In this document: piece after piece, positions 1,688-15,413 of the stretch
Layout: the number at the start of each line of letters is the position of its first letter
How positions within the stretch are numbered: the stretch's first letter is position 1
Assembly (NCBI GenBank): GCA_001803565.1
Contig: MHDQ01000253.1
Location: 1 to 15,413, forward strand
Direction: 5' to 3'
DNA length: 15,413 nt
From: Nitrospinae bacterium RIFCSPLOWO2_12_FULL_45_22
Lineage (GTDB): Bacteria; 2-12-FULL-45-22
Translations under genes and position numbers: made by a program
The notes under the pieces: model-generated
Database searches by the model: none
What the model saw: the letters and a program-made list of their open reading frames with translations, nothing else
Told to the model about the DNA's origin: nothing

Positions 1688-3751
1688 ATGATGGAACTAC
1701 AGACCGTTTCCCAACCATTTATGAATCTGATAAGAGAGCTTCAGGATATAGAGAGTTATAAGCACCTGTACTGGGAGGGTAGTTTTGAAGAGTACCTGGA
1801 CCTGGTCAGAAAGAACCCCAAGGTGGCTAGAACGGCTTTTCAAAGGATTTATGATATGATCTTATCCCATGGTACCGAAGAGTATACGGATAATAAAAAG
1901 AAAGTTATCCATTATAATTTTTTTGACGACCCTTTCTCTGGCGGGATAGATGCCATTTATGGCCTAGATATCCACCTGATGAAATTGGCCAATATTTTTA
2001 AGTCCGCCGCTATGCGTTATGGCACCGAGAAGAGGGTACTGCTATTGCATGGCCCAGTGGGGAGTGCCAAGAGCACCATTGTCCGGCTTTTGAAGAAGGG
2101 CCTGGAGGAATATTCTAAGACCCCTGAAGGGGCCCTGTATTCCTTCAAGTGGATAGATATGGAAGAGATTCATAATAATGGACAGCCTATCCCCTGTCCT
2201 ATGAACGAGGAGCCCCTTCATCTAATCCCGTTGGAGATTAGAAAGCTTATCCTGGAAGATATAAATCGGGCTCTTCCCGAGAGAGAAGAGTTGATAATTG
2301 AAGGGGACCTCTGCCCCTCTTGTAGGCAAAATTATCGGGAATTGCTAAAGAAATATGGTGGGGATTGGACTAAGCTGGTAAATCATATCCGGGTACACCG
2401 GGTGATACTTTCCGAAAAAGACCGGGTAGGTATTGGTACCTTCCAGCCCAAGGATGAAAAAAATCAGGACTCTACCGAGCTTACTGGAGATATAAATTAT
2501 AGAAAGATTGCCGAATATGGCACTGATTCCGACCCCCGGGCCTTCAATTTTGATGGTGAATTCAATATTGCCAACCGGGGATTGATCGAATTCATTGAGG
2601 TATTGAAATTGGAGGTAGCTTTCTTATACGACCTGCTGGGCGCTTCTCAAGAGCATAAGATAAAGCCCAAGAAATTTGCCCAGACAGATATTGATGAGAT
2701 CATTATCGGCCATACCAATGAACCAGAATACCGGAAATTACAGAACAATGAGTTCATGGAGGCATTGAAGGACCGTACGGTCAAGATAGATATCCCATAT
2801 GTCACCAAATGGAGTGAAGAGGTAAAGATATATAAAAAGGATTACAATAATACCAAGATCAGGGGAAAGCATATTGCCCCCCATACTATTGATATGGCTG
2901 CCATGTGGACGGTCCTGACTCGCCTGGAGGAACCCAAGAAGGCCCAATTGACCCTCTTGCAAAAACTTAAACTGTATGACGGTAAGACTCTACCGGGCTT
3001 TACTGAGGACAATATTAAGGAGTTAAGGAAAGAGGCTGCCCGGGAGGGGATGGAGGGTATTTCTCCCCGCTATATTCAAGATAAAATCTCTAATGCCCTG
3101 GTAAGCGATAAGGGTGAGGGTTGCTTAAATCCCTTTATGGTGCTGAATGAGCTAGAGGCAGGCTTAAAACACCACTCCCTCATTACTTCAGAAGAACAAC
3201 GGAAAAGCTGCAAAGAACTATTGGCAGTGGTTAAGGCCGAGTATGAAGACACAGTCAAAAACGAGGTTCAGCGCGCTATATCGGCCGATGAAGAGGCCCT
3301 GAAGAGATTATGCGGCAACTATATTGATAACATAAAGGCCTATACCCAGAAAGAGAAGGTAAGGAACAAATATACTGGCCAGGCAGAAGAACCCGATGAG
3401 AGGCTGATGCGCTCGATAGAGGAAAAGATCGAGATACCAGAAACCCGCAAAGACGATTTTCGCCGGGAGATCATGAACTATATCGGGGCTCTGGCCCTGG
3501 ATGGTAAGACCTTTGATTATAAGGCTAATGAGCGGCTCTTAAAGGCGCTAGAACTAAAGCTGTTTGAAGACCAGAAAGATTCTATCAAACTGACTAGCCT
3601 GATCTCCAGTGTAGTGGATAAAGATACCCAGGAAAAGATTGACGTGGTTAAAAGCCGGCTCATTAACAACTATGGCTATTGTGATATCTGTGCTACCGAT
3701 GTGCTAAGCTTTGTAGCCAGTATCTTCGCCCGGGGAGATATCAAACAGTAA
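1688..3751 (+). CDS. prkA: PrkA-family serine protein kinase / AAA+ ATPase
   Basis: This 687-aa protein is a full-length PrkA (YeaG) family member. Residues 122-130 (GPVGSAKST) form the Walker A loop. [12 protein letters not shown] (296-307) is the Walker B region, GHTNEPE (341-347) the sensor-1 region, and GISPRYIQ (457-464) fits sensor 2. A C-P-S-C pair (209-212) lies in the insert between Walker A and Walker B, and the C-terminal part is the helical PrkA kinase-like region. The family is cytoplasmic and has been reported as a protein kinase and, in Bacillus, an ATP-dependent protease linked to sporulation. AGGAGG at 1678-1683 sits 4 nt from this ATG and 7 nt from the adjacent ATG at 1691, so the true start may be Met2. 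It is the first gene of an operon; its stop overlaps the next start by 1 nt (TAATG). A sigma54 site at 1550-1565 probably controls it. Confidence 0.95.
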
Positions 3752-4854
3752 TGATTGCCAAGATAGAGAGAGATAGTGGACGATTCAGGCAGATCATCCG
3801 GGGTAAGATAAAGAAGGAGCTAAAGAAATACATTGTCCGGGGTGAGCTGATTGGCCGTAAAGGTAAAGACCTTATCAGTATCCCCTTACCTCAGCTAGAT
3901 ATTCCTACCTTCCGCTATGGCCACCAGGGTAGAGCCGGCGTAGGCCAGGGCGAAGGAGAGGAAGGCACACCCTTGGCTCCTGGACCGGTTGAGCATGGTG
4001 AAGGTGCGGGCGAGATGCCTGGGGACCACATCCTGGAGGTAGATATAACCCTGGAAGAGCTGGCTAAGCTCCTGGGCGAAGAGCTTGAGCTGCCTAATAT
4101 TGAACCCCGGGGGAAGAAGCATATTACCAGCCAAAAAGAGAAATATACGGGGATCAGTCATGCTGGGCCAGAGTCCTTGCGGCATTTTAAAAGGACATAT
4201 AAAGAGGCCCTAAAACGCCAGTTAATCTCAGGTAGCTATGACTATAAAAACCCCCGGATTGTCCCGATAAGAGAGGATAAGCGATACCGCTCCTGGGATG
4301 TGACCAAAGAACCAGAGAGCAATGCGGTAATAATATATATGATGGACGTTTCGGGCTCTATGGGTGATGAACAGAAGGATATTGTTCGGATAGAATCCTT
4401 CTGGATTGATACCTGGCTGCGCTCGCAATATGAAGGAATTGAGACCCGCTATATTATCCACGATGCCGTAGCCAGAGAAGTAGACCGGGAGACATTTTAT
4501 CATACCCGGGAGAGTGGTGGAACCAAGATATCATCTGCTTATCAGTTGTGTAGCCAGCTCATCAACAAGGAATATTCACCTGAGGACTGGAATATCTATC
4601 CCTTCCACTTCTCTGATGGAGACAATTGGGGTGGGGGAGATACCAAGATTTGTATAGAGGTACTGGAGAAATATCTATTGCCCAAGATCAATCTCTTCTG
4701 CTATGGGCAGGTAGAAAGCCCTTATGGTAGTGGCGAATTTAAGCGGGATCTCGATTATTATTTCAGTGATTGGGAAAATCTCGTCACCTCCCATATCCCC
4801 GACCGGGAAGGGGTTTATGATTCTATAAAGCAGTTTTTAGGAAAAGGGAAATGA
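3751..4854 (+). CDS. yeaH: YeaH/YhbH family VWA protein (DUF444)
   Basis: This 367-aa protein belongs to the DUF444 family (YeaH in E. coli, YhbH in Bacillus), which almost always accompanies prkA and spoVR. A basic N-terminus is followed by a Gly/Glu-rich low-complexity segment (about residues 58-92). The C-terminal half is a von Willebrand factor A domain. Its metal site (MIDAS) is intact: D199-x-S201-x-S203, T258 in GGTKISSA and D289 in FSDGDN. The family has no proven biochemical role. A VWA protein coupled to an AAA+ ATPase recalls the MoxR-VWA and RavA-ViaA pairs, so a substrate-adaptor role for PrkA is a reasonable inference. Translation is coupled on both sides: a 1-nt overlap with prkA and an ATGA overlap with spoVR. 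The symbol follows the E. coli name. Confidence 0.93.
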
Positions 4855-6341
4855 ACCTTACAGCAGAATTAGAGTCATTAAAGGCTGAGATAGAAGAATA
4901 TGCTGCCTCTTATGGGCTGAATTTTTTCCCCATTGTCTTTCAGATTTTGGATTTTGATCAGATGAATGAAGTAGCCAGTTATGGTGGTTTCCCTACCCGC
5001 TACCCGCACTGGCGTTTCGGGATGGAATATGAAAACCTGCAAAAGAGCTATACCTATGGCCTACAGAAGATATATGAGATGGTAGTGAATAATGATCCTT
5101 GTTATGCTTACCTATTGGAATGTAATAATATCGTGGATCAGAAGATAGTTATGACCCATGTCTATGCCCATAGCGACTTTTTTAAGAATAATCAGTGGTT
5201 CCAGTATACTAACCGGAAGATGATGGATGAGATCGCCAATCATGCCACTCGAGTCATAAAATATATAGAAAAAGAGGGACAAGATGTAGTGGAGGACTTC
5301 ATAGACTGTTGTCTATCCCTGGAAAACCTTATTGATTATCATTCACCTTTTATTCAGCGGAAGGAAAAAAAGTCTAAATACGATTTTCAAGAAGAAGAGC
5401 CGGGAGAAACGGTAAAGAAGCTCCGGAGCAAAGACTATATGGATAGCTTCATCAACCCTAAAGAATTCTTAGAGGAGCAAAAAAAGAGATTAGAAGAAGA
5501 AAAAGTTAGAAAGAAGAAATTTCCTGACGAACCTGAGAAGTGTGTGCTCACTTTCCTGATCGAAAACGCCCCCCTGGAGAAATGGCAACAGGACATCCTC
5601 TCTATCATCAAGGAAGAGAGCTACTATTTTGCCCCTCAAGGCCAGACCAAGATAATGAATGAAGGGTGGGCTACTTATTGGCATTCTAAGATTATGACCG
5701 AGAAATGCCTGAGGGACCCAGAGCTCATAGACTATGCCGACCACCATGCAGGGACTTTAGGGATGAGACCTGGCCGGATCAACCCCTATAAGATCGGGGT
5801 AGAACTATTCCGGGATATTGAGGATAGGTGGAATAAAGGGAGGTTTGGTAAAGAGTATGAAGAGTGCGACAACCTGATCCAACGGAAAAATTGGGACAAG
5901 AAGCTGGGGCTAGGCCAGCAAAAGAGCTTTGAGGTCAGAAAAATATACAATGATATAGGATTCATTGACACCTTCCTCACAGAAGATTTCTGCCGCGACC
6001 AGAAGCTTTTTACTTACCAATATAATGAGAAGACAAATACTTATGAGATTGCCAGTCGGGACTTTAGGGAAATCAAGATACAGCTCCTCTTTAGCTTGAC
6101 TAACCTGGGCCAGCCTTTTATCTATGTTATAGATGGCAACTATGAGAACCGGGGCGAGATCTATCTTAAACACAAACATGAAGGTATAGATTTAAAGCTC
6201 GATTATGCCCAGGCTACCCTGGCCAATATCTATAAGATATGGGAGAGGCCAGTGCATATCGAGACGATAGTGGCGGAAAAAGGTAAATTATTCACCTTTG
6301 ACGGTAAAAAACATGATAAGCACGATATAAAAATTGGATAA
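4851..6341 (+). CDS. spoVR: SpoVR family protein
   Basis: This 496-aa protein is a full-length SpoVR (YcgB) family member. Visible family signatures are [17 protein letters not shown] (45-61), the His-rich [12 protein letters not shown] (103-114), [15 protein letters not shown] (268-282) and DHHAGTLG (297-304). The conserved His and Glu residues in these blocks look like a metal or catalytic site, but no activity is established to my knowledge. In Bacillus, SpoVR is involved in spore cortex formation. The family is also widespread in non-sporulating bacteria, where it stays with prkA and the DUF444 gene, so its presence does not show sporulation. A highly charged Lys/Glu stretch (about 206-227) is probably a surface coiled or flexible linker. 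Its ATG overlaps the stop of the VWA gene by 4 nt, and it is the third gene of the operon. Confidence 0.95.
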
Positions 6342-13322: not shown

Positions 13323-14204
13323 CTAGCCCGTTAATCTCTTTAAAGCCTCCAGGTACTTCTCGCTGGTCTTTCTTACCACTTCCTCCGGGAGTATCGGAGC
13401 AGGGGGAGTCTTGTCCCAATCAAGACTCAGGAGATAATCCCGGACAAACTGTTTGTCGAAGCTCTTTTGGGAGCGGCCGGGTTTATAGTCCTCTTTAGGC
13501 CAGAAACGGGAGGAGTCCGGAGTAAGAAGTTCATCTATCAATAGTAGTTCCCCTTCCTGAAGGCCAAATTCAAACTTGGTATCAGCAATAATAATCCCCT
13601 TCTGCTCAGCTATATCCTGGGCCTTTTTGTATATATCGAGGCTAATGGTTGTCAACCTCTCTGCCAAATCGGCTCCAATGATCTCTTTCATCTTTTCCAC
13701 CGTAATATTAATATCATGCCCTTCCTCGGCCTTAGTGGCCGGAGTAAAGATAGGTTCTTCTAACTCAGCCCCCTCTAACAGGCCGGGGGATAATTTTATC
13801 CCACAGATAGAACCCGTTTCCTGGTACTCCCTGTATCCCGAGCCTGCTAGATAACCCCGTACCACGCACTCAACTGGCAACGGTTCTGCATTCTTCACCA
13901 ACATGCTCCTACCCTCTAAAAGCCTTTTATACGGCAGACATATCTCGGGATAATCTTCTACCCGCATAGAGATAAGGTGGTTGGGGATAATGTCTTCCAT
14001 CTGTTTAAACCAATAACTAGATATCTGGGTCAAGACCCTGCCTTTGTTAGGTATGCCATTGGGAAGGACTACATCAAAGGCCGAGATCCTATCAGTAGCT
14101 ATAAATAGCAGGTTATCACCGAGGGAATAAATATCCCTTACTTTACCCCGTTTAAACAACGTAATACCTTTAATATCAGTATTAATTACTAAATCATCAG
14201 GCAT
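13323..14204 (-). CDS. purC: Phosphoribosylaminoimidazole-succinocarboxamide synthase
   Basis: This 293-aa protein is SAICAR synthetase, which joins CAIR and aspartate with ATP in purine biosynthesis (cytoplasmic). The N-terminal [25 protein letters not shown] (about 20-44) holds the ATP-binding Gly-Lys-x-R-D motif and the family D-R-x-S-x-F-D. [18 protein letters not shown] and D-T-K-F-E-F-G later in the sequence are further signatures, and PDSSRFWP is also conserved. Length and layout fit the common longer bacterial form of about 290 residues. The ATG overlaps the end of purE by 8 nt, so purE and purC products, which act in sequence (AIR/N5-CAIR to CAIR to SAICAR), are translationally coupled. 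Confidence 0.96.
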
Positions 14205-14883
14205 CTTTTCCCCCTTCTTCGAATTCTCTCTTTGCCTCTTCCCTCATCTTTTTAAACTTCTCATCAATCTCATGGTATTTTAGGGCCAGTATCTCAAGGG
14301 CCAGGTAGGCGGCATTTTTTGCCCCATTAATAGCCACAGTGGCAACTGGTACGCCATCAGGCATTTGCACTGTCGAAAGGAGGGCATCTATCCCTCCCAG
14401 GACACCCGAGTTTAATGGAACACCTATGACCGGTAGTTGGGTATTAGCAGTTACCATACCCGCCAGATGGGCTGCCATCCCGGCCCCGGCAATGATCACT
14501 TCTATACCCCTTTCTGCGGCACTTCTGGCATATTCCATAACCCTATCCGGTAGCCTATGAGCGGATAGCACCTGCATATCAAAAGGAACCCCAATCTCCC
14601 TTAAAATCCCAGCCGCTTCTTCCATAACAGTTCGGTCATTTTTGCTCCCCATGAGAATTCCTATCAGAGGCATTTCCCTTCTCTCGCCCCCTTTCCATTT
14701 GAGCTCCAGTTCTAGTTCTCCACCATCCTCCTCCGTCTCCAGCTCTAGCTCTAATGTCACTTCATCAGGTAAAGAAGCTAACGTATCACCTACGGAGACC
14801 TCTCTTTGAACCTCCAGGGAAGCAACTATTTTTTTGATTTCTTCTAAAGCCTCAGAAAGTTTTACCTGCTTTTTAATCTTCAT
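14197..14883 (-). CDS. purE: PurE N5-CAIR mutase with N-terminal amphi-Trp-like domain
   Basis: This 228-aa protein carries a complete PurE core from Met71 (nt 14673) to about residue 205: MGSKND (78-83), catalytic SAHR (107-110), [11 protein letters not shown] (133-143) and the late [13 protein letters not shown]. PurE converts N5-CAIR (class I) or AIR plus CO2 (class II) to CAIR; the core looks class I. The first 70 residues are extra. An amphipathic helix is followed by [22 protein letters not shown], with alternating Leu/Glu and W63 near the end. This matches the small amphi-Trp domain as I remember it (TIGR04354, role unknown). The GGAGG RBS 7 nt before the first ATG supports this start. 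A weak site (GAGAAGG) lies before Met71, so internal initiation giving a plain PurE is possible. It overlaps purC by 8 nt. Confidence 0.93.
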
Positions 14884-14972
14884 AATAAGCCTCCGCCTTT
14901 TACCCCTGCTTATCTACCTTGACACAAACCAGACACCAAGCAGCCGCAGGCCCCTGCCCTGCTAACTCTTCT

Positions 14973-15413
14973 CTATTCAAAATAGAGATTTTTTATTTCA
15001 TACTCAACCGTCCCTTTTGGCACTTCAACTTTAATCATCTCACCTACTTTACGCCCCAGCAATGCCCTGGCTACTGGTGACCTTATGGATATCTTTCCTT
15101 TCTGATGATCCGTTTCATCCTCACCCACTAACCGGAAGGTCTTCTCTTCACCAGCTTGTAAATCTTCTAATACTACGGTAGCGCCAAAGACTATCCGGTC
15201 GCTGGAAAGAGTCTTGGTATCAATAACTTGAGACCGGGCCAGCCTATCCTCCAGTTGCCTTATCTTAGCCTCAACCAATGCCTGCTGCTCCTTAGCAGCA
15301 TGATACTCAGCATTCTCGCTCAAGTCCCCATGCTCCCTGGCTATTCTAATAGCCTCTATCACCTGAGGTCTGACGCGGCTCTTTAAATCCTTTAGCTCCT
15401 TCTGGAGGACTTC
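14973..15413 (-). CDS. greA: Transcription elongation factor GreA, N-terminus cut by window
   Basis: The frame is open to the right edge, so the first residues (about 12-15 of the usual 158) lie outside; 146 residues are present. The N-terminal coiled-coil finger is shown by ELKDLKSRVRP, AREHGDLSENAEYHAAKEQQ (the D and E at the coiled-coil tip) and an EAKIRQLEDRLA helix. The C-terminal FKBP-like domain follows: VVLEDLQAGEEKTFRLVGEDETD, ISIRSPVARALLGRKVGE. GreA enters the secondary channel of RNA polymerase and triggers cleavage of backtracked RNA. The apparent start at 15362 is a GTG inside the coding region, not the true start. purE follows after 89 nt on the same strand. Confidence 0.95.
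   Translation of the reverse strand, partial: EVLQKELKDLKSRVRPQVIEAIRIAREHGDLSENAEYHAAKEQQALVEAKIRQLEDRLARSQVIDTKTLSSDRIVFGATVVLEDLQAGEEKTFRLVGEDETDHQKGKISIRSPVARALLGRKVGEMIKVEVPKGTVEYEIKNLYFE

Follow-up and report, generated by a model that had tools for sequence, protein, structure and literature searches.

An amphi-Trp-related domain fused in front of PurE in a Nitrospinae bacterium and in Nitrospirota

PurE is an octameric enzyme of purine synthesis that occurs in several natural fusions, being joined to PurC in metazoan PAICS and to PurK in fungal ADE2. A PurE-PurE' fusion is also described in Methanobacteria (PMC3261824). Like these proteins, the one we describe here carries an extra domain in one chain with PurE; unlike them, it carries neither a pathway enzyme nor a second PurE, but a small domain without a catalytic family match. 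It is encoded in a 15,413-nucleotide stretch of Nitrospinae bacterium RIFCSPLOWO2_12_FULL_45_22 (contig MHDQ01000253.1), referred to here as the window. The protein is a variant of PurE rather than a new kind of system, and its N-terminal domain is a relative of the amphi-Trp proteins (TIGR04354 in NCBIfam, PF20068 in Pfam).

Our literature search found no assigned biochemical role for amphi-Trp domains, which a preliminary description of this locus had characterized as small stand-alone proteins of unknown role. As to size this holds: the amphi-Trp matches listed in our surveys, at least 49 in number, come from open frames no longer than 204 amino acids, bar one weak partial match, and since nearly all of these are small proteins, fusion to an enzyme is unusual. 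As to role the picture is less blank, because several of the high-scoring amphi-Trp loci that we scanned adjoin genes of the GAK system, namely those for a CofD-like protein and an HprK-related kinase B; a shorter amphi-Trp subfamily seems not to adjoin them. Several amphi-Trp genes can also cluster on one contig (L038/L059/L067 on G258:C281; also L062 and L064), some with long Ala/Lys/Pro-rich tails. The window shares with the GAK system an amphi-Trp-type domain, but no window gene resembles a GAK gene, and the best match to the GAK CofD-like protein in the genome, which is 85% complete, scores 59.6 bits against a cut-off of 340. We therefore rejected a GAK origin for the domain. A second amphi-Trp match in the same genome was sought and not found.

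One reading frame for an N-terminal domain and a complete PurE

The fusion gene (14197-14883, minus strand, as are all genes and sites given coordinates in this section unless listed by eye) consists of a single open frame, 228 codons long, that encodes 228 amino acids without an internal stop. It is a single, real in-frame fusion of a 70-residue N-terminal domain (residues 1-70; 14674..14883) to a complete class I-type PurE (residues 71-228 and the stop codon; 14197..14673), which bears out the architecture first proposed for it. Codon usage over the 210 bases of the N-terminal domain scores +31.8 bits in the frame of the fusion, whereas each of the remaining five scores between -13 and -42, and a Shine-Dalgarno-like GGAGG (14890..14894) ends 6 nt before the start codon at 14883. 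The PurE core, annotated as a class I-like N5-CAIR mutase, matches TIGR01162 at 196.9 bits over residues 74-222 (curated cut-off 149.6) and PF00731 with E 1.6e-61, and retains the motif residues common to all aligned PurEs. Its nearest solved chain is Thermotoga maritima PurE (1o4v, E 2e-53), while the class II chain 3rg8 matches only with E 4e-11. From other class I PurEs the protein differs in its 70-residue front domain. No purK scores over cut-off in the genome, which is 85% complete; some organisms get by with a class I-like PurE alone (PMC3261824).

The core begins at Met71 (14673), the usual start point of stand-alone PurEs such as that of G279 (MPLVGIIMGS), and a weak candidate internal ribosome site for PurE alone, AGAAGG (14677..14682), lies 3 nt before this codon. 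Between W63-K64 and the PurE start runs a linker, GGERRE (14674..14691), whose residues 65-67 have pLDDT below 50 in the full-length model; because of this low model confidence we regard it as probably a flexible tether.

Downstream, as the preliminary description had noted, lies purC, encoding SAICAR synthase (13323..14204; PRK13961, 426 bits), which overlaps the fusion gene by 8 nt, and given this overlap translational coupling of the two genes is probable. About 90 bases upstream, a GreA/GreB-like gene (Pfam GreA_GreB; 14973..15413) runs off the contig end. Elsewhere in the window, reading the list of open frames by eye, we noted three adjacent genes resembling a PrkA-YeaH-SpoVR set (serine kinase, VWA protein and SpoVR; 1688-6341) and a protein, cut off by the contig start, that bears PKD/Ig-like repeats of some 96 residues each, three in tandem (2-970). 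Mis-binning of the contig is unlikely, since its tetranucleotide make-up agrees with most sampled contigs of its bin. One contig of the bin, G000:C254 (L159), correlates at only 0.29 with the window in this measure, and is possibly contamination or a mobile element.

Homologous fusions in Nitrospirota and the number of origins

PurE is present in 327 of the 386 genomes in a first survey across bacteria. Among the matches listed there (each of our surveys lists about 150 best matches, and further fusions may exist), only that of the window started ahead of residue 45, and the PurEs in long frames that we read lacked such an N-terminal domain. The resulting view of the fusion as a singleton or artefact was dropped once a second survey, of Nitrospirota, yielded a PurE in G672 that matches the window protein from residue 10. 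This fusion is 245 residues long and has its own GGAGG site; its first 68 residues align with those of the window protein without gaps, and the local score of the two N-terminal domains is 66, while shuffles reached no more than 53. Fusions in G804 and G808 came from a third survey, centred on G672. The architecture is thus not limited to the window genome but extends to at least three Nitrospirota genomes, in which PurE is preceded by a homologous domain of equal length. In phages and plasmids we found no fusion covering 80% of the query.

The Nitrospirota domains share with that of the window their length, their position and a set of residues conserved across all four (K8, I19, E24, V29, V31, E45, L46, G55-E56-L57, L61 and W63). 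They differ in being only 25-28% identical to it, in not being acidic, in the placement of their cores in another clade and in having no methionine at the PurE junction; this last feature indicates that, barring a rarer start codon, the domain is translated in one chain with PurE in these genomes. The Nitrospirota domain is under purifying selection, with dN/dS of 0.19, 0.12 and 0.24 for the three pairs as compared to 0.09-0.14 for the core, values that are rough where dS exceeds 1. All three fused cores fall within family f268 (100/99), in which most other PurEs that we read carry, at the fusion's place, short, variable and often Arg/Lys-rich tails of about 20-40 residues (L102-L148). Since the fusion occupies the place of such basic tails and is patchy inside the family, it is dispensable there.

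In a tree of 45 PurE cores from which the N-terminal domain was left out, the window core is placed among non-fused Nitrospirota PurEs of families f208, f275 and f264 (98/91). It stands apart from the PurE of G001, the only other genome of its order in our set (53% identity), and this grouping suggests horizontal transfer of purE. Forcing the four fused cores into one clade costs 76.9 log-likelihood units (p-AU 1.2e-84), which rules out inheritance of the fusion from one ancestor. With the fused cores in different supported clades, the fusion must have arisen at least two times, independently in the window lineage and in Nitrospirota. A constraint that unites the three fused f268 cores is disfavoured too (p-AU 2e-4). 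The branches in this part of the tree are short, however, and it does not distinguish between loss, gain on more than one occasion and exchange among family members.

Repeated independent fusion speaks for a functional link and against an assembly artefact. That one wrong base merged two overlapping genes in the window is conceivable, since a one-base deletion near the junction would close the first frame at a TGA overlapping the PurE start, and a run of five Gs and the possible internal start both lie near this point. We nonetheless consider such an error extremely improbable: homologous fusions without a junction methionine occur in three other assemblies, no stand-alone amphi-Trp gene stands beside purE in the loci that we read, and the composition of the contig fits its bin.

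Relation of the N-terminal domain to amphi-Trp proteins

The N-terminal domain had been likened to amphi-Trp from its terminal tryptophan and Glu/Leu-rich strands. Both features are present, and W63 aligns with the family tryptophan at the end of the last strand, although the invariance of this residue in the alignment is partly by construction, as the other rows were trimmed at the tryptophan. The curated models match the domain but stop short of including it: TIGR04354 scores 21.8 bits (E 1.7e-4; model positions 7-67 of 67) against a cut-off of 31, and PF20068 scores 18.8 bits against a gathering cut-off of 27. With both cut-offs missed, the domain is no family member by curated rules, and the identity originally assigned to it has to be loosened to that of a relative outside the curated family limits, with a related fold and significant kinship. 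Because such fused domains are missed by the curated models, further fusions from this divergent branch may have gone unnoticed.

The kinship itself is real. A single-sequence search with the domain among 865 open frames of 30 amphi-Trp loci ranks amphi-Trp frames at the top, and a profile of 29 amphi-Trp domains scores it at 24.7 bits, whereas the maximum among 19,895 scored shuffles is 17.7. When the fusion was aligned jointly with both families by MAFFT, the amphi-Trp rows were put wrongly, and we therefore made two separate models. Compared profile to profile, the four fused domains match the amphi-Trp domains with E 1.5e-7, and when the four-domain profile is run on 8766 open frames its best non-fusion matches are amphi-Trp proteins (best E 3e-7). 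The likeness could in principle reflect nothing but an acidic, alternating composition, as might be argued from the two missed cut-offs and from the Nitrospirota domain, which alone matches no model. We judge this very improbable in light of the shuffle, open-frame and profile-profile results, and because the Nitrospirota domains are not acidic and yet align almost without gaps.

When amphi-Trp rows are supplied, AlphaFold predicts for the domain a helix (residues 9-25) and four strands (28-31, 34-37, 43-51 and 54-62) with pLDDT 89.5, in agreement with the fold first suggested, though this prediction draws partly on those rows. In the full-length model, for which the N-terminal domain was given no relatives, the helix and the third and fourth strands recur at lower confidence. 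By these predictions the domain would resemble amphi-Trp proteins in having a helix followed by strands, the last of which ends in tryptophan; it differs from them in its sub-threshold scores and in being joined to an enzyme. A fold search with the domain returned no significant match (best E 1.7 in Foldseek, best Z 2.6 in VIA-align), which does not show that the fold is new, and searches of our domain profiles against the sequences of solved structures gave weak or repeat-driven matches only, with no stand-alone amphi-Trp member among them.

Possible roles of the fused domain

Our direct results concern sequence, predicted fold, selection and separate origins, and it is from these that we infer function. 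The same kind of domain has joined PurE at the same place in independent events, suggesting a functional link, and the known fusions join PurE to PurK, PurC or a second PurE; on these grounds we prefer, tentatively and at somewhat less than an even chance, a docking or assembly module that is flexibly tethered on the PurE oligomer. In this model a single polypeptide would present a small alpha-beta, amphi-Trp-related domain in front of an otherwise normal class I-type PurE, and because PurE is octameric each particle would be surrounded by multiple copies of the domain, eight in all. The domain may hold PurE near a pathway partner, such as PurC in the window or PurK in one Nitrospirota case, or alternatively link PurE particles to one another. 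The preliminary description's suggestion that it might act on PurE octamers or on the passage of CAIR to PurC would be compatible with this. We consider it unlikely that the domain replaces PurK, since in G808 what reads in the sequence as the start of a PurK-like gene directly follows the fusion; the domain is thus probably no mere PurK stand-in. The docking model has points against it: PurC is not a neighbour of the Nitrospirota fusions and no single partner is common to all cases, the domain shows no conserved polar, active-site-like pattern besides the fold core and the GEL...L.W strand, and the patchy distribution within one Nitrospirota family implies that the fusion can be dispensed with there.

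The same patchiness, together with the rarity of the fusion and the variable basic tails that f268 relatives carry at this position, would fit another account, in which a small stable domain has replaced a disordered PurE tail and helps the protein to fold or stay soluble, with no particular partner to bind. We regard this as unlikely, though a serious contender, as it does not readily explain why two origins arrived at an identical fold, length and position, or why the domain is under purifying selection. Small helix-sheet domains are often regulatory modules, and amphi-Trp genes elsewhere adjoin kinase and CofD-like genes, so that the domain could instead sense a ligand, such as a nucleotide, and control PurE allosterically. 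This strikes us as improbable: the four N-terminal domains conserve no pocket-like polar residues, the linker to the core is modelled at low confidence and, as weaker evidence, no known sensor fold is matched significantly.

Beyond the choice of mechanism, we propose that a specific job in purine synthesis, be it docking, assembly or control, is the reason why unrelated lineages have, on two or more occasions, acquired an amphi-Trp-related domain at the N-terminus of PurE, a proposal to which we give slightly less than even weight. If it is correct, the amphi-Trp fold gains its first enzyme partner; in any event, the list of PurE fusions gains a small module without a catalytic match. Repeated fusion to a well-assayed enzyme also makes the role of amphi-Trp testable by ordinary PurE assays and pull-downs.
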